NCBI RefSeq assembly: GCF_007754425.1
Contig: NZ_CP037452.1
Coordinates: 3,323,164 to 3,387,163 of the forward strand
Origin: Gimesia fumaroli
Lineage (GTDB): Bacteria; Planctomycetota; Planctomycetia; Planctomycetales; Planctomycetaceae
DNA length: 64,000 nucleotides
Direction of reading: 5' to 3'
Below the pieces are notes generated by a model. It had not been told where the DNA came from and ran no database searches. It worked only from the letters and a program-made list of their open reading frames with translations. Shown here piece after piece: positions 32,233 through 40,054 of this stretch. The number at the start of each line of letters is the position of its first letter. Positions within the stretch are counted from its first letter, which is position 1. A program made the translations under genes and the position numbers.

Positions 32233-33498
32233 ATGAGACGGTTTCTCACTTCTCTGGCAGTCCTTGGTGCCCTGTTGACATCAACGGTGATCTGGGCGTG
32301 TTCTGTTCCCGTCTTCCGTTATGCATTGGAGCGGTGGCCTGCTGACAAATATAACGCTGTTGTATTTTACCGGGGAGCACTCAATGCAGATCAGAAAAAG
32401 CTGGTAACGCAATTCGACAAAGAAGGCGCGATAGGGCAGAAATCGGCGAATGTGGAATTGCGTCTGGTCAATCTTGAAGAAAAAACAGCTCCAGAAGATC
32501 TCGAGCTCTGGAAAAAACAAAAGTCAGAAACACTACCTTTACTGGTTGTGCGAACTCCCCTGCCTGCTCCCGTTCCCAATGGTTTCTGGTCGGGGGAATT
32601 GAGTGAAGAGAATCTGGTACGCTTGATTGATTCTCCTTTGCGTCAGAATATTGCCCGGCAGTTGATTAAGGGACAAACTGCAGTCTGGGTTTTCCTGGAA
32701 AGTGGCAATCCTGAAAAAGATAAAGCAGCATATGAGCTTTTGGCCAAAGAGCTCAAACGTATGGAAAAAACGCTGAAGCTGCCTGAAATCGAGCAGGCAG
32801 ATATAGAACAGGGGCTGGTCAGTGTTTCTCCAGATAGTTTAAAGTTGCAGTTCAGCGTCGAAAAATGTTCGCGCGACGATTCTGTTGAGAAGTACTTCAC
32901 ACAGATGCTCCTGGCGACAGAGAACGATCTGAAAGATTTCGGCGACGAACCGATGGCACTCCCTGTATTTGGGCGGGGACGGGTTTTGTATGCTTTAATT
33001 GGGAAAGGGATTAATCCCGGGACAATCGAGCAGGCGTGCCGAGATCTGACTGGCCCTTGTACCTGTCAGGTGAAAGATCAGAATCCGGGGACCGATTTAT
33101 TGATGGCAGTGAACTGGGAAAATCTGGTAACACCAGCCACGCAGGACGAAAAAGAATTACCCCCTTTGACCGGGTTGATTGGTTTTTCCAAAGAGACTAA
33201 CGAAACGTCAGAAGCGATCAAGATGCCTGCAGCTCTGAAAAATGGTCAGGCGGAGAATAAAACAGATTCAAAACAGACTGAACCAACCGATGGCGCAAAC
33301 AAGTCGACTCCGACTCAGGAAGTGACCGCAGCCAGTGGTGCAGCCGCGTCGTCGTCGGCGGAGCAACCGAGTGCCAATGCGACAGAGACTTTGGAGAGTA
33401 GTCAGGGCAGCACACTGTTTCGAAATTTGATCATAATGGCATCATTAGTGATTGTTCTGATTCTGGGGGCCAGCTACATGCTAATGGTTCGCAAGTAA
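32233..33498 (+). CDS. Exported, membrane-anchored protein of unknown function (first gene of transport cluster)
   Basis: 421 residues from ATG 32233 (AAAGGTG upstream; the longer in-frame start at 32155 adds residues before an obvious signal peptide). It has an N-terminal signal sequence ending near WACSVP, a long extracytoplasmic part and one C-terminal membrane helix (about 397-416) with a short basic tail. Between them is a Ser/Thr/Ala-rich stalk (about 335-395). The start of the mature region, WACSVPVFRYALERWPADKY, carries a Cys, and a CTC pair occurs near residue 275. Segments such as AVVFYRG and AVWVFLESGN have a thioredoxin-fold feel but no CxxC active site. It is not recognised. Location in front of two ABC modules suggests it assists substrate delivery or membrane assembly. 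Confidence 0.85.
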   Translation: MRRFLTSLAVLGALLTSTVIWACSVPVFRYALERWPADKYNAVVFYRGALNADQKKLVTQFDKEGAIGQKSANVELRLVNLEEKTAPEDLELWKKQKSETLPLLVVRTPLPAPVPNGFWSGELSEENLVRLIDSPLRQNIARQLIKGQTAVWVFLESGNPEKDKAAYELLAKELKRMEKTLKLPEIEQADIEQGLVSVSPDSLKLQFSVEKCSRDDSVEKYFTQMLLATENDLKDFGDEPMALPVFGRGRVLYALIGKGINPGTIEQACRDLTGPCTCQVKDQNPGTDLLMAVNWENLVTPATQDEKELPPLTGLIGFSKETNETSEAIKMPAALKNGQAENKTDSKQTEPTDGANKSTPTQEVTAASGAAASSSAEQPSANATETLESSQGSTLFRNLIIMASLVIVLILGASYMLMVRK

Positions 33499-33559
33499 AA
33501 CGGGACGGTGGATAGCGTCGGAGTTGAATCCCAATTTTGATTTTAGAAGAGTATGGGCC

Positions 33560-34840
33560 ATGTCATTATTTCGGTTAATTATTCAGGAAATACAGCATCG
33601 TAAGATGAATTTTCTGCTGGGGCTGTCCTCAGTTGTAGTTGCAGTTGCTTGCTTGATTGCTGCGTTAACTCTGTTGCAGGCGGATGAAATTCAGACGACT
33701 TTTATCCTGGAGCAGAAAGAGAAGGAAGTCACACAGGCAGGCACTGAACTGAAAGACTCCATGCGAAAAATTATGAAAGGTCTTGGGTTTAATATCCTGG
33801 TCCTCCCGGCAAATCAGGATTTGAGTGAATTCCATTTAACTGGGGTAGTTTCCGAAACGATGCCGGAAGCATACGTCAAAGAACTGGCAGAGTCGAAGAT
33901 TGTTACGGTCAATCATCTACTGCCGATGGTCGCCAAAAAGATTACCTGGCCGGAACAAAAATGTGATGTGATTTTAACGGGTACACGTGGTGAAGTTCCC
34001 ATTTTACATCGCGCTCTCAAGAAGCCGCTCCAGCAGCAGGTCCCCAAAGGCAGCATGGTGCTGGGTTTTCAGATCCAGAAAAAACTCGGATTAAGTAAGG
34101 GGGACGAAGTTCAACTGATGGGGAAAAACTTCAAGGTGACTCAAACTTATCCAGAACGGGGAACCGCTGATGACAGTACGGTTTGGATCAACTTGGAAGA
34201 AGCACAGGAATTGCTGGGAATGCAAAACCTGGTGAATGCGATTCTGGCTCTGGAGTGTAATTGTGCAGCCGAAGACCGTGTGGCTCAGATTCGCGATGAA
34301 ATTGGCAAAATCCTGCCCGGAACTCAGATTATCGAACGCGGCCCCCCTGCTCTGGCCCGCGCAGAGGCGCGTAACAAGGCACATGAAACGGCCGTTGCTT
34401 CACTTGAGCAGGAGAAGGCCAGTCGAATTCAAATGATTGAACGTCGTGCTGATTTTGCGGCAGTGCTGGTTCCGCTGGTAGTGCTTGGCTGTGGTGCCTG
34501 GATCGGCTTTCTGTCATTGGAGAACGTCCGGCGTCGCGCGACGGAAATTGGGATTTTGCGGGCGATTGGCTTACGGTCTTCACAGGTCTTTGGGATCTTT
34601 ATCATCAAGGCGCTTGTGATTGGCGTGATTGGTGCCTTGATCGGATATTTTCTGGGCTACGGAATTGGAATCATCTGGGGGAACCTGCCGGCCTCTGTTA
34701 ATCCTGAAGCAGCTTTATTTTCAGGTCGATGGTTACTGTTAAGTCTGGTATTTGCACCAGTGCTGGCCGGCTTATCCAGCTGGATCCCGGCGTTGTTGGC
34801 GGCAAGACAGGATCCTGCCACGATTCTGCAGGAAGGATAA
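33560..34840 (+). CDS. ABC transporter permease, FtsX/MacB type
   Basis: 426 residues with the FtsX-like arrangement: one N-terminal membrane helix (about 20-42), a large periplasmic domain (about 45-300) and three C-terminal helices. The FtsX core motif appears as TEIGILRAIGLRSSQVFGIF. I chose ATG 33560, where the protein begins SLFRLIIQEIQHRKMNF, a typical cytoplasmic lead. It pairs with the ATPase at 34852, only 11 bases downstream. Members of this family (MacB, LolCE-type) do mechanical work on the periplasmic side or extract lipoproteins rather than import solutes. The periplasmic domain has a CxC (ECNCAAE). The substrate is unknown. Confidence 0.9.
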   Translation: MSLFRLIIQEIQHRKMNFLLGLSSVVVAVACLIAALTLLQADEIQTTFILEQKEKEVTQAGTELKDSMRKIMKGLGFNILVLPANQDLSEFHLTGVVSETMPEAYVKELAESKIVTVNHLLPMVAKKITWPEQKCDVILTGTRGEVPILHRALKKPLQQQVPKGSMVLGFQIQKKLGLSKGDEVQLMGKNFKVTQTYPERGTADDSTVWINLEEAQELLGMQNLVNAILALECNCAAEDRVAQIRDEIGKILPGTQIIERGPPALARAEARNKAHETAVASLEQEKASRIQMIERRADFAAVLVPLVVLGCGAWIGFLSLENVRRRATEIGILRAIGLRSSQVFGIFIIKALVIGVIGALIGYFLGYGIGIIWGNLPASVNPEAALFSGRWLLLSLVFAPVLAGLSSWIPALLAARQDPATILQEG

Positions 34841-34851
34841 TCAGAACAAAT

Positions 34852-35541
34852 ATGTTATTGGAATTAGTTGAGTTATCGAAGTCGTTCAAGTCTGGCTCCC
34901 AACGGGTTCAGGCCGTGGATGGAATCAGTCTGACTGTGGACGCAGGGGAATTTCTGGCAATTAAGGGCCCAAGTGGCTGTGGGAAGTCTACCTTGTTGTT
35001 AATGGTCGGGGGATTGTTGAGCCCTGATACGGGAAAGGTTCTGATTGAGGGGACCGATCCTTATGCACTTTCGAATGATCAGAGAGCCCGGTTCCGGTCG
35101 ACTCATCTGGGGTTTGTGTTTCAGCAGTTTCATCTCGTGCCTTATTTAAGCGTGTTGGATAACGTGTTGACACCCGCGCTGGCAACCAATTTGGCAGAGG
35201 CGAAAGAACGGGCGAATGCATTGATTTCACAGTTTGGCTTAGAGCATCGTTTGCACCATACGCCCGTGGAATTGAGTACAGGAGAAAAACAGCGGGTGGC
35301 TTTAGCGCGAGCACTGTTTCATCAACCCAAAGTACTGTTGGCAGATGAGCCCACTGGGAATCTGGATGCTGAAAATTCTGAGATCGTGTTGAACACCCTC
35401 AAGCAATTTACCCAGAATGGGGGCTGTGTGCTGATGGTCTCTCACGATGATCAAGCTGTTCAGTCGGCACAGAAAGTGTTGGGCATCAAGGATGGTCGTT
35501 TACAACCGCATAGCGAAACTGAAACGTTAATTAATTCTTAA
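34852..35541 (+). CDS. ABC transporter ATPase, MacB/LolD type
   Basis: 229 residues, ATPase partner of the FtsX-type permease. Complete motifs: Walker A GPSGCGKST, Q-loop FVFQQFH, signature LSTGEKQRVALARAL (variant of LSGGQ), Walker B LLADEPTGNLD, and the switch His in MVSHDDQ. The GNLD ending of the Walker B loop is the usual form in LolD/MacB ATPases. ATG 34852 is placed where the domain begins (LLELVELSKSFKSG). It overlaps no gene but follows the permease closely and lies 29 bases before the binding-protein gene. Confidence 0.94.
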   Translation: MLLELVELSKSFKSGSQRVQAVDGISLTVDAGEFLAIKGPSGCGKSTLLLMVGGLLSPDTGKVLIEGTDPYALSNDQRARFRSTHLGFVFQQFHLVPYLSVLDNVLTPALATNLAEAKERANALISQFGLEHRLHHTPVELSTGEKQRVALARALFHQPKVLLADEPTGNLDAENSEIVLNTLKQFTQNGGCVLMVSHDDQAVQSAQKVLGIKDGRLQPHSETETLINS

Positions 35542-35570: not shown

Positions 35571-37238
35571 ATGATGAGATACCCCCGCAGAGGTCACTGG
35601 AAACAGGTAGTTCAGTTCAAGTCCCGAAGAGGAAAAATCAGTACTGGAATCGCTTTTGTCGGAGGCTCTCTGGCTTTCCTGGTCATTATGTTGGGGGTCT
35701 TGATTTATGCTCCCCCAAAAGAGAACCCAGAGACGTCGGTAAATACGGCTCAGAATTCTGGTGACCAATCGAGTGCGAAGAGTGAAGCGGGGGAAACTGA
35801 TTCCGGTTCAGCGAACCAAGAGAGCGAATCCCTGGTAATGTACTGTGCTGCCGGGATCAAACCACCGGTCGCTGAAGCGGCTGCTCAGTTTGCAGCAGAA
35901 GAATTCGGCGTGCCGATTCAATTGCAGTATGGCGGATCCGGGACACTGCTTAGCAATTTACAAGTCGCGAAAAAAGGAGATTTGTATCTGGCAGCAGATA
36001 CCAGCTATATCGAAATTGCCCGAAAGAAGAACCTGCTTAAAGAAGCGGTTCCCGTGGCGCAAATGCATCCTGTGATCATGGTCAAAAAAGGGAATCCGAA
36101 ACAGATACAATCGATTGATGACCTGATCAAAGAGGGAGTGACCGTTTCCCTGGCGAATCCTGATGCCGCCTCCATTGGAAAACTGACAAAAAAAGAACTG
36201 GAAAAAGCCGGGAAATGGGACGCTCTGTCAAAGTCAGCACGCGTCTTCAAGCCCACCGTTTCGGAAGTGGCCAATGATGTTCTGCTGGGGGCAGTCGACG
36301 CAGGCATTGTCTGGGATGCGACGGTCAATCAGCATGCAGACAAAGTAGAGATGATTGAGGTCCCCGAATTCTCACAGGCGATTAAAAATGTGACAGTGGG
36401 AGTTTTGAATTCTTCCGCACATCCTCAGGAAGCGTTAATGTTTGCCCGTTACCTGCAGGCTCCTGAGAAAGGTCAGGAATTGTTTGCAAAACAGGGATAC
36501 CAGACGGTCAAAGGCGATACCTGGGAGCCACATCCGCAAATTCTGCTTTTCAGTGGTGGCGTGAACCGGCTGGCAATTCAAGATACTTTAAAAGAGTTTG
36601 AGAAGCGTGAAGGCGTTTCAATTAATGTGGTGTATAATGGCTGTGGCATACTGGTGGGGCAAATTAACAGCGGGCAAAAGCCAGACGCTTATTTTGCCTG
36701 TGATACATCCTATATGGTGCAGGTACAACCCAAGTTCACCCTGCCTTTAACCGTTGCTGAAACAGACATGATTATCATCGTCGAGAAAGGCAATCCCAAG
36801 AAGATTAAATCCGTTTATGATCTGGCAGGCGATGATATCAAGGTGGGGATCGCGCACCATGAGCAAAGTGCATTGGGGGCGCTGACCAAAAAATTACTGG
36901 GTCCCCTGGTACAGAATGATAAAAGTCTGTACGACGCCATTCAACCAAACGTGAAAACCAATACACCAACGGCCGATCTTCTGGTGAATCAATTGCGAAC
37001 CGGTTCTCTGGATGCAGCAATTGTTTATCGGGCAAATATTGCAAAGGTCGCAGATAAACTGGATGTCGTGGAAATCAAAGAGGGGCGTCCTCTGGCAGAG
37101 CAGCCGATTGCGATCTTGAAGTCAACAAAATATCCCAACTTGATGCAGCGTCTGGTTGATCAGCTAACATCTGACTCGTCTCGAGTGATTTTTGAATCGC
37201 GAGGATTTCGCTGGCGTATCACTCCGGAGTCAATATGA
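35571..37238 (+). CDS. Membrane-anchored tandem ModA-like substrate-binding protein
   Basis: 555 residues with one N-terminal membrane helix (about 28-46), an acidic Ser/Gly-rich linker and then two solute-binding domains in one chain. The first (about 88-315) has QYGGSGTLLSNLQVAKKGDLYLAADTSY in pieces matching ModA (GSG oxyanion loop, then the ADxFxxAD-like strand). The second (about 328-555) repeats the plan with YNGCGILVGQINSGQKPDAY and ends DTSYM. Both keep the DTSY word, so the tandem comes from internal duplication. In the second copy the Ser of GSG is replaced by Cys. ModA, WtpA and sulfate-type binding proteins are the nearest relations. A tungstate/molybdate or similar oxyanion is expected, unproven. 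The stop overlaps the next gene (ATGA). Confidence 0.88.
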   Translation: MMRYPRRGHWKQVVQFKSRRGKISTGIAFVGGSLAFLVIMLGVLIYAPPKENPETSVNTAQNSGDQSSAKSEAGETDSGSANQESESLVMYCAAGIKPPVAEAAAQFAAEEFGVPIQLQYGGSGTLLSNLQVAKKGDLYLAADTSYIEIARKKNLLKEAVPVAQMHPVIMVKKGNPKQIQSIDDLIKEGVTVSLANPDAASIGKLTKKELEKAGKWDALSKSARVFKPTVSEVANDVLLGAVDAGIVWDATVNQHADKVEMIEVPEFSQAIKNVTVGVLNSSAHPQEALMFARYLQAPEKGQELFAKQGYQTVKGDTWEPHPQILLFSGGVNRLAIQDTLKEFEKREGVSINVVYNGCGILVGQINSGQKPDAYFACDTSYMVQVQPKFTLPLTVAETDMIIIVEKGNPKKIKSVYDLAGDDIKVGIAHHEQSALGALTKKLLGPLVQNDKSLYDAIQPNVKTNTPTADLLVNQLRTGSLDAAIVYRANIAKVADKLDVVEIKEGRPLAEQPIAILKSTKYPNLMQRLVDQLTSDSSRVIFESRGFRWRITPESI

Positions 37239-38179
37239 CTGAGAAGAAAACTGACGAACATTCCAGCGCAATAAAATCTCGCTCAGATCTCCCTTTTTAT
37301 ACGATCTTCATTGCCATCAGCGCCGTTTATGTGCTGTTGATTGTGGCGATGTTGTCGGCGGAGACGACTTACACCACTCCCGATCATATCTGGGGCGCTT
37401 TTGCTAAGCCGGAAATTCGCTATGCGATCTGGTTGAGCCTTGTTTCCTGCGCAATTACGACGGTGTTGTCGTTGTGGGTCTCGGTGCCGATTGGATATTT
37501 AATGTCCCGTCACAATTTCTGGGGCAAAACACTGGTGGATGCGATTCTGGATATACCCATTGTGTTACCACCTCTGGTGATTGGTTTATGCCTGTTGATT
37601 TTGTTTCAGGTGGAAATGCCACAGATTGAATGGGTGAATAATATTCTGAAGTCGGTTTCAGGAGCTTTGTTTGGTAAGGAAATTTATGTTGCCCAGGGAG
37701 ACTCGCTGGATGACATGATTCGTAAAATGACGGGCCTGATTTTCAGTAGACCAATCGGTGTGACTTATGAAATTCCGAGTGTCATCCTGGCGCAATTTAT
37801 GGTGGCGTGTGCGTTTGCAGTTCGGACGATGCGGGTGACTTTCGATCAGATCGGACCTCGCTACGAGCAAGTCGCTTTAACACTGGGTTGTAATCGCGGG
37901 CAGGCTTTCTGGCGTGTGGTATTTCCCCAGGCTTATCGTGGATTATTAGCGGCGGGCACACTGGCCTGGGCACGTTCGCTGGGGGAGTTTGGGCCGATTC
38001 TGGTGTTTTCGGGGGCCACACGCATGAAAACAGAGGTTCTGCCAACAACCGTGTTTTTAGAGCTGACTGTTGGTAACATAGAAGGTGCAGTTGCGGCTTC
38101 CTTGATTATGGTCGTGTCTGCATTAATTGTTTTAGTCATCGCCCGGATGTTCGGGCTGACACGTGGCGCGGCAATTTAA
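37235..38179 (+). CDS. ModB-like ABC transporter permease
   Basis: 314 residues. Membrane subunit of an oxyanion importer, with about six helices. The inner-membrane EAA loop appears as EQVALTLGCNRGQAFWRVVF, and the adjoining LGEFGPILVFSGATRMKTE is typical of molybdate and sulfate permeases (ModB, CysT). Compared with ModB (about 225 aa) it is long. It has an N-terminal extension (about 20 aa) and a hydrophilic insertion of about 55 residues after the second helix pair (around EMPQIEWVNNILK to RPIGVTYE). The ATG lies within the stop of the binding-protein gene, so the two are translationally coupled. The ATPase follows 60 bases on. Confidence 0.92.
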   Translation: MTEKKTDEHSSAIKSRSDLPFYTIFIAISAVYVLLIVAMLSAETTYTTPDHIWGAFAKPEIRYAIWLSLVSCAITTVLSLWVSVPIGYLMSRHNFWGKTLVDAILDIPIVLPPLVIGLCLLILFQVEMPQIEWVNNILKSVSGALFGKEIYVAQGDSLDDMIRKMTGLIFSRPIGVTYEIPSVILAQFMVACAFAVRTMRVTFDQIGPRYEQVALTLGCNRGQAFWRVVFPQAYRGLLAAGTLAWARSLGEFGPILVFSGATRMKTEVLPTTVFLELTVGNIEGAVAASLIMVVSALIVLVIARMFGLTRGAAI

Positions 38180-38239: not shown

Positions 38240-38947
38240 ATGATTTCAGTAAATAATCTTTGTGTACAAGTTGGTGAGTTCAGCTTGAAGGATATCAGCT
38301 TCGAAGTGCCTCAGGGGCACTACGCGGTATTAATGGGCAAGACGGGGAGCGGGAAGACGACGATCCTGGAAACCATTTGTGGTTTGAAGAAGGTCCTCTC
38401 CGGAACCATTCATCTGAATGGAAAGCTGATGACGTATGCCAAGCCCTCTGAGCGTGAAATCGGTTATGTCCCCCAGGATGGGGTGCTGTTTCATACAATG
38501 ACGGTCCGGGACAATCTTTCGTTTGCTTTAGAATTACGAAAATGGAGCAAACAGAAAATTAAAGATCGTGTGGAAGAACTGGCCGACCTGCTGGGGATCA
38601 CGGAGTTACTCAATCGGACTCCGCATGGATTAAGTGGTGGAGAAACGCAACGCGTTGCGCTGGGGCGGGCGCTGGCTGCGAAGCCTGCTTTTTTATGTCT
38701 GGATGAGCCCTTAAGCGCATTGGATGAAGTCACACGCGAGGAAATGTGTGTATTGCTGAGCAATGTCCAGCGTTTGACCCGCGTTACGACATTACATATC
38801 ACGCATAATCTTTCGGAGTCTGATCGACTGGGAGATATCAAGTTGCGTATTGAAGGGGGCGCGGTTCACCAGATCGGAGCAGCCAGTACGGAGAAATTAG
38901 CGGGACAGCCGAATCAAGTCATTCAGAAAACGAAATCAACCCCGTAA
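38240..38947 (+). CDS. ModC-like ABC transporter ATPase
   Basis: 235 residues. Motifs: Walker A GKTGSGKTT, Q-loop YVPQDGVLF, signature LSGGETQRVALGRAL, Walker B FLCLDEPLSALD, and switch His in THNLSESDR. The LDEPLSALD form belongs to ModC/CysA/PotA-like importers, unlike the GNLD ATPase of the neighbouring FtsX module. It lacks the C-terminal TOBE (molybdate-binding) domain of classical ModC, and the protein ends soon after the ATPase fold. Together with the permease and binding protein it completes an importer. MoaD- and E1-like genes follow. Confidence 0.93.
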   Translation: MISVNNLCVQVGEFSLKDISFEVPQGHYAVLMGKTGSGKTTILETICGLKKVLSGTIHLNGKLMTYAKPSEREIGYVPQDGVLFHTMTVRDNLSFALELRKWSKQKIKDRVEELADLLGITELLNRTPHGLSGGETQRVALGRALAAKPAFLCLDEPLSALDEVTREEMCVLLSNVQRLTRVTTLHITHNLSESDRLGDIKLRIEGGAVHQIGAASTEKLAGQPNQVIQKTKSTP

Positions 38948-38974: not shown

Positions 38975-39253
38975 ATGAAGATTGTAGTGGAGTATACGGC
39001 ACAGGTTAAAAAAGCCGCTGGTGTCGGCAAAGAAGAATTTGAAGTCAACGAGGGGAGCACTTTGCAGGATCTCGTCAAGCAGGTGGCTGAGCAGCATGCG
39101 GCATCTCTGAAATCCATTCTATTCCCGAATTCGGAAGAGTTACATCCTTCGATTTTGTTGTTTGTTTCCAATCAGCAGGTATTGTGGGGGGAACCTTTTA
39201 CTTTAGAACCGCATCATGTCGTGACGATTCTCTCGCCGATTTCCGGGGGATAA
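38975..39253 (+). CDS. MoaD/ThiS family sulfur carrier protein
   Basis: 92-residue ubiquitin-like protein. It ends in SPISGG, the diglycine C terminus that is adenylated and thiocarboxylated in MoaD and ThiS. The body is a beta-grasp: KIVVEYTAQVKKAAGVG, FEVNEGSTLQDLVKQVAEQ, PFTLEPHHVVTILSPISGG. ATG 38975 has GCGGAA nearby. MoaD supplies sulfur for molybdopterin; in this cluster it sits after a ModABC-like importer and before an E1-like protein, consistent with cofactor synthesis or another sulfur-transfer pathway (ThiS and others cannot be excluded). The moaE gene is not in the window. Confidence 0.9.
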   Translation: MKIVVEYTAQVKKAAGVGKEEFEVNEGSTLQDLVKQVAEQHAASLKSILFPNSEELHPSILLFVSNQQVLWGEPFTLEPHHVVTILSPISGG

Positions 39254-39301
39254 TTTACATTTTTATACAACGGTAATCAATTTTAGTAAGAGACAGGAGT
39301 C

Positions 39302-40054
39302 ATGATGTCTGGTTTCGCTCCCCTGACTGATGAAGAACGGGCAGTTTATGAATGGCAGATCTGGGTACCGGAGTTTGGTGAGGCCGGCCAGGAAAAATTA
39401 AAAAATGCGTCGGTGCTGGTCTCGCGTTGCGGGGGGCTGGGCAGCGTGGTGGCATATGAACTGGCAGCGGCCGGCATTGGCAAACTGGTGATTGCCCATG
39501 CAGGAAATGTCAAGCCGAGTGATCTCAATCGCCAGTTACTGATGACGCATGACTGGTTGGGAAAACCGCGTGTGGAGTCGGCCGAACGTCGTCTGAAAGA
39601 GCTTAATCCCCGGTTGGAAATCGTCGCCATTCCAGAAAATCTGAATGAAGAAAATGCGGAACAGATTGTGAATCAGGTTGATCTAATCGTCGATTGTGCC
39701 CCGCTCTTCCCTGAACGTTATGCGATGAACCGTCAATCGGTTTTACAGAAGAAACCGCTTGTTGAATGCGCCATGTATGATCTGGAAGCACAGATTACCA
39801 CTTTTATTCCTGGCCAAACGGGCTGTCTGTCTTGTTTATTCCCCGATGATCCGCCGGCCTGGAAGAGGGAGTTCCCTGTGTTTGGCGCGGTTTCAGGAAC
39901 CGTCGGCTGTATGGCGGCAATGGAAGCGATTAAGGTTCTTTCTGGATTAGGAGAGCCATTGATCGATCAGTTGATGATGTTTGATTTGCGTGATATGACG
40001 TTTCACCGAAATACGATTCAACGCCGGACAGATTGCCTCGTCTGTGGAAAATAG
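39302..40054 (+). CDS. MoeB/ThiF/HesA family E1-like protein, divergent adenylation site
   Basis: 250 residues, homologous along its length to MoeB: LNRQLL with the Arg finger, GKPRVES with the conserved Lys, two Cys pairs for zinc (CLSC and CLVC near the C terminus), and GTVGCMAAMEAIKVLSG. Two conserved acidic positions are different. Where MoeB has LLDFDTV the sequence is VIAHAGNV, and DCTDN is DCAPL, so the Asp residues for ATP ribose and magnesium are lost. The glycine loop is RCGGLG rather than GLGGLG. The protein may therefore be a non-adenylating or altered partner of the MoaD-like protein. ATG 39302 or 39305 follows AGGAG. Confidence 0.85.
   Translation: MMSGFAPLTDEERAVYEWQIWVPEFGEAGQEKLKNASVLVSRCGGLGSVVAYELAAAGIGKLVIAHAGNVKPSDLNRQLLMTHDWLGKPRVESAERRLKELNPRLEIVAIPENLNEENAEQIVNQVDLIVDCAPLFPERYAMNRQSVLQKKPLVECAMYDLEAQITTFIPGQTGCLSCLFPDDPPAWKREFPVFGAVSGTVGCMAAMEAIKVLSGLGEPLIDQLMMFDLRDMTFHRNTIQRRTDCLVCGK

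Follow-up and report, generated by a model that had tools for sequence, protein, structure and literature searches.

A single polypeptide encoded at 35571..37238 on the forward strand of the window (the whole 64,000-nucleotide stretch of Gimesia fumaroli DNA analysed here) carries two ModA-like binding domains on one membrane anchor, beside the genes of a single importer, as the initial annotation had claimed. The architecture and fold of this tandem receptor, the pocket positions and invariance of two cysteines in its second domain, the order of the surrounding genes and the co-occurrence of the receptor with a thioredoxin-fold protein are directly established. ModA-type receptors are textbook oxyanion binders, holding their ligands through hydroxyl and backbone NH groups, and planctomycetes abound in marine and other habitats in which molybdenum supply affects nitrogen metabolism. 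An old branch of the ModA fold here has a two-cysteine pocket, is joined in every case to a normal ModA head and is inherited along with a thioredoxin-fold protein. This combination points to a chemistry of molybdenum or metal uptake outside the current picture, and suggests an undescribed sulfur- or metal-dependent uptake of molybdenum or of a second nutrient. The tandem receptor also makes a clean test system, in which each head should be expressible alone.

Architecture of the tandem receptor

The reading frame is intact, opening with an ATG at 35571 and specifying 555 residues in the order anchor, first domain (D1), short fixed linker and second domain (D2). The Pfam family SBP_bac_11 matches it in two stretches (299.7 bits in total; 176.6 and 128.8 bits for the two stretches in the genome scan), and D1 and D2 align with each other at E 2e-29 and 29% identity across 221 columns, a resemblance far above chance. 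In an AF2 model built from 42 homologues (mean pLDDT 86.7, with D1 and D2 mostly above 90), each half is predicted to form a complete two-lobe (Venus-flytrap) receptor fold with a cleft of its own; neither a single domain nor a half deprived of its cleft was seen. The repeat plan drawn at residues 88-315 and 328-555 by the initial annotation stands but its exact limits do not, since the model and the structural alignment place D1 at residues ~86-314 (35826..36512, forward strand) and D2 at residues ~322-550 (36534..37220, forward strand). Anchoring through an uncleaved membrane helix is supported by the model, in which residues 26-46 (35646..35708, forward strand) form the helix and residues 47-84 a disordered spacer between it and D1; a lipoprotein anchor was ruled out because the window protein has no Cys, hence no lipobox, before residue 92. 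The linker (residues 314-323; 36510..36539, forward strand) occupies 10 columns of the alignment, is of equal length in 42/42 sequences and contains invariant Asp316, Trp318 and Pro322, so that the two heads may sit in a set orientation.

By structural alignment, D2 (321-550) matches 7tav with Z 22.7 and E. coli ModA (1wod) with Z 22.1, and D1 (85-314) matches 4kd5 with Z 20.5. WtpA and archaeal ModA (3cij, 3cfx, 2onr) match similarly well, being tied with ModA at Z ~20-21, but the receptor domains described here are shorter and the sequence search gave no match to the WtpA receptor family. Both heads share the fold, domain size and cleft topology of ModA (TIGR01256, SBP_bac_11). D1 alone scores above the curated TIGR01256 equivalog cut-off of 62.5 bits (73.9 bits, E 1.7e-20) and, like ModA, retains the equivalent of Ser39 and is encoded next to ModB- and ModC-like partners, whereas D2 alone falls under that cut-off (47.1 bits, E 2.7e-12) and has Cys where ModA has Ser39 and Ala58. 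In further contrast with ModA, which has one domain per chain and is free in the periplasm, the receptor has two domains and is held on a membrane helix.

For the whole chain, the top Foldseek match is the SBD1-SBD2 tandem of GlnPQ (6h30), an L. lactis system in which two non-identical tandem receptors likewise serve one importer (PMC8025302). The arrangement had been called unusual, which is only partly so: tandem receptors are already known from GlnPQ (PMC8025302), and 48/392 sampled Planctomycetota genomes carry the present one. GlnPQ is, however, an amino-acid system whose receptors are fused to the permease, and its linker is flexible and 14 residues long (PMC8025302), whereas the planctomycete linker is invariant in length and the ModA-like receptors stand on a separate polypeptide; a GlnPQ-type fusion is absent, as receptor and permease are separate open reading frames (35571-37238 and 37235-38179). 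A histidine-kinase sensor of the BvgS/EvgS type, also high in the Foldseek results, was ruled out because the chain stops after D2 and Pfam finds no kinase domain.

Two cysteines in the pocket of D2

The initial annotation had pointed to a GSG loop in the first half, a GCG loop in the second and DTSY after both, and these motifs were found as described, at residues 122-124 and 357-359 for the loops and 143-146 and 378-381 for DTSY, with identical spacing in the two domains (S123+20, C358+20). Across homologues the Asp alone of DTSY is invariant (D143, D378), so that the T-S-Y shared by D1 and D2 is partly lineage-specific. The change from Ser to Cys is real: among the 42 aligned receptor homologues, of which 40 extend over the D1 loop (the rows include near-copies, and L005 and L035 are apparently one contig), Ser123 (35937..35939, forward strand), which corresponds to Ser39, an anion ligand in E. 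coli ModA, is invariant in D1 (40/40), and Cys358 (36642..36644, forward strand) occupies the same position in every D2 sequence. A second cysteine, missed earlier, is Cys377 of an ACD motif (36699..36701, forward strand), at the position of E. coli Ala58 and P. aeruginosa Ala79. Both residues are present in 42/42 aligned D2 sequences and in 11 additional ones from other genomes, the most divergent (G342 and G348) included, and in the window protein they are exactly the cysteines that D2 possesses.

Alignment to solved ModA proteins is gap-free and equates C358 with E. coli Ser39 and C377 with E. coli Ala58. In P. aeruginosa ModA, Thr60 hydrogen-bonds the anion and Ala79 is listed among the anion contacts (PMC9171197); the same 19-residue spacing suggests that C358 and C377 correspond to this pair. 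As the equivalents of both cysteines contact the anion in solved ModA, C358 and C377 should line one small pocket of D2. The pocket positions also vary elsewhere: at those of E. coli Ser12 and Tyr170, D1 has mostly Gly (95) and Trp (248), and D2 has Val/Met (331) and a retained Tyr486. The Ser12 and Tyr170 hydroxyl ligands are not conserved throughout ModA, and the fifth ligand is also missing in P. aeruginosa ModA (PMC9171197). D1 and D2 differ consistently, at C377, at the S12, S39 and Y170 positions and in their ModA scoring, and these data are compatible with the earlier proposal of different anions for the two sites. Within D2 the invariant cleft positions are G329, GCG, CD, Y486 and Q511. 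When plasmid records were searched with D2 by tblastn for such a Cys pocket outside planctomycetes, the matches listed were ModA proteins of at most ~28% identity; those inspected, one from Azospirillum and one from Proteus, show GSG and lack Cys at the D2 positions.

In a tree of 108 domains, D2 forms one clade (100/100) on a long branch (0.92) and D1 lies in a separate cluster; a recent internal duplication was ruled out, the two being old separate clades. A third clade, "HDP" (100/96), has His at the Cys377 position, and its sister relation to D2 is not fixed by this tree, which was rooted at the midpoint. HDP domains come paired with D1-like domains, encoded by adjacent genes or, in reverse order with HDP first, within one fusion (G145, G041, G160); together with the D1/D2 pairing, this recurrence suggests some use in having two unlike receptors side by side. 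Opposite-order ModA-fold fusions of this kind, HDP first and D1-like second, were observed in other planctomycete families at L038:1679-3304, L043:1447-3207 and L044:5411-6976. When 392 Planctomycetota genomes were scanned with a D2 profile, 48 gave a D2-type match of at least 238 bits and all others stayed at or below 138 bits; except at contig ends, every D2 lay in a tandem-length frame with D1. Some D1 proteins lacking D2 are nested within the tandem group (L049, L051), which indicates a loss of D2. Certain related planctomycetes (L049, L052) have no D2 but retain both D1 and the importer, so that D2 is dispensable for import. The source genome encodes a further SBP_bac_11-related receptor (L106:4809-7312; 347 aa) adjoining a permease, outside the tandem system.

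Importer genes and thiol partners

The start codon of a ModB/CysW-type permease (37235..38179) overlaps the receptor stop codon (ATGA), and family matches then identify a ModC/WtpC-like ATPase devoid of the C-terminal regulatory domain (38240..38947), a MoaD-like sulfur carrier with a GG end (38975..39253) and a MoeB/ThiF-like activating enzyme (39302..40054); upstream of the receptor lies a LolD-like ATPase (34852..35541), all on the forward strand. The permease and ATPase are of ModB/ModC type by family match, although neither reaches its equivalog cut-off. Running from the thioredoxin-fold protein through the FtsX permease and the LolD-like ATPase to the tandem receptor, and on to the ModB-like permease, the ModC-like ATPase, MoaD and MoeB, the gene order recurs with variations in several families, MoaD and MoeB being often, not always, part of the conserved locus. 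The permease is directly downstream of the receptor in 35/39 loci, often with a 4-base overlap; for the remaining 4/39 it is elsewhere in the genome in three (G130, G105 and G200) and the fourth meets a contig end. No second close copy of the permease was found in the source genome. As this genome has a separate MoaD-MoaE-MoaA cluster elsewhere (L103), the MoaD-MoeB pair at 38975-40054 is an extra pair. It also encodes molybdopterin oxidoreductases, one of which adjoins an iron-sulfur/membrane subunit gene. A tungstate-specific system was set aside, the genome search having given neither a TupB above cut-off nor an AFOR enzyme. No paper describing this arrangement was found in the open-access literature.

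At the upstream end of the locus, a 421-residue protein (32233..33498, forward strand) matched no Pfam family; its model shows two thioredoxin-like folds followed by a C-terminal membrane helix. Similarity of the second fold to thioredoxins is moderate (Z ~9) and only generic thioredoxin/PDI folds were matched, the aligner having barely probed the first domain. Cys23 and the pair Cys276-x-Cys278 are invariant among 22 homologues, and the family carries the motifs ACxVPVFRYALERW and GxCxCqvK. The next gene encodes an FtsX/MacB-type permease (33524..34840, forward strand; Pfam), in which the homologue alignment reveals a comparable pair, Cys245-x-Cys247, in the extracytoplasmic domain; C245 is present in 26/26 homologues and C247 in 25/26, one having a longer spacing. 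Of the 392 genomes, 47 have both the thioredoxin-fold gene and a double receptor (of D2 or HDP type, the HDP set being hand-listed), 11 the receptor alone, 7 the thioredoxin-fold gene alone and 327 neither (Fisher p ~2e-42, ignoring phylogeny); the two co-occur even where they are not adjacent. In several of the 11 receptor-only genomes, a divergent CxC relative of the thioredoxin-fold protein lies just upstream of FtsX; for that of G342, profile comparison with the thioredoxin-fold protein gave 97.6% probability with the CxC aligned. Divergent relatives (CRYTVRDIGFV ... ESCECD) were also recorded at L148:2071-3255, L076:3135-4304 and L147:8968-10227, in genomes without the main form.

The source genome contains a paralogous FtsX-LolD module (L173:3323-9801) with vicinal Cys at the same place of FtsX, so that a Cys pair in FtsX is not confined to the tandem-receptor system. 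Close to this module are encoded a small protein rich in Cys and His, a regulator with iron-dependent-repressor domains and a protein that looks thioredoxin-like on inspection of its sequence and has no Pfam match; this neighbourhood is a circumstantial hint at metals.

Possible roles of the second head

The explanation favoured here, tentatively and at a little short of even probability, is a two-specificity receptor resembling GlnPQ, in which D1 would bind molybdate and D2 a different, thiophilic ligand, with thiol partners assisting and one ModBC-type importer serving both. The membrane-tethered, two-headed receptor would feed this importer, both heads presumably docking on the same permease. 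D1, the ModA-like head, would most likely take molybdate. D2 would be a specialised version of the same fold and cleft, in which the anion-ligating Ser and a nearby Ala on the pocket floor have given way to two invariant cysteines; its ligand would therefore most likely be thiophilic, for example a soft metal ion or complex, or a thio-oxyanion. These thiols would probably be loaded, maintained in reduced form or unloaded, by thiol exchange, through the co-inherited double-thioredoxin protein together with FtsX-LolD; CxC is conserved in both the thioredoxin-fold protein and the FtsX permease.

Weighing against this reading are the planctomycetes that manage without D2, the three genomes in which tandem receptor and permease are apart, the FtsX paralogue with its own Cys pair, and the chance that C358 and C377 form an ordinary disulfide in the oxidising periplasm. 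The same residues could instead constitute a redox gate: D2 would bind the oxyanion of D1, a reversible C358/C377 disulfide would shift its affinity and the thioredoxin-fold protein would reset it. This is considered unlikely, although there is precedent in A. baumannii ModA (8zj6/8zj8), likewise of ModA fold and with two Cys close to the site, where oxidation to the redox-sensitive disulfide C141-C189 lowers molybdate affinity (PMC11734730). The restriction of D2 in the window protein to just these two cysteines and the double-thioredoxin protein encoded at the receptor locus also agree with such a gate. However, the A. baumannii pair is placed elsewhere (lobe B) and is described as unique to that organism, in a single-domain protein for which no thioredoxin-fold partner is reported (PMC11734730). 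Moreover, replacing Ser with Cys removes a first-shell hydroxyl ligand, other ligand positions differ too, and the His found at the 377 position in the HDP clade makes a disulfide impossible there.

A broader variant, about as unlikely as the gate, is an undescribed extracytoplasmic thiol/metal relay of Planctomycetota, in which the double-thioredoxin protein, the CxC-bearing FtsX-LolD and the receptor, its second head gripping the ligand between the two cysteines, would take up thiol-bound molybdenum (or one of its partners, for instance copper or a thio-molybdenum species) and hand it to the ModBC importer. Rather less probable again is that D2 serves the thioredoxin-fold protein and FtsX-LolD for docking or hand-over and not transport, the importer being served by D1 alone. 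The co-occurrence of double receptor and thioredoxin-fold gene also when apart, the related genomes with D1 and importer but no D2, and the loci of G130 and G105, where the receptor adjoins the LolD or thioredoxin-fold gene and the permease is elsewhere, would all fit this role, but the two-lobe fold of D2 is complete, its cleft is conserved at the positions given above and in many loci the receptor and permease frames overlap at stop and start. A degenerate D2, held by a structural disulfide and binding no ligand, would accord with its long branch and its score under the ModA cut-off but is improbable, as the cleft loops are strongly conserved and the Cys pair has been lost in 0/53 sequences.
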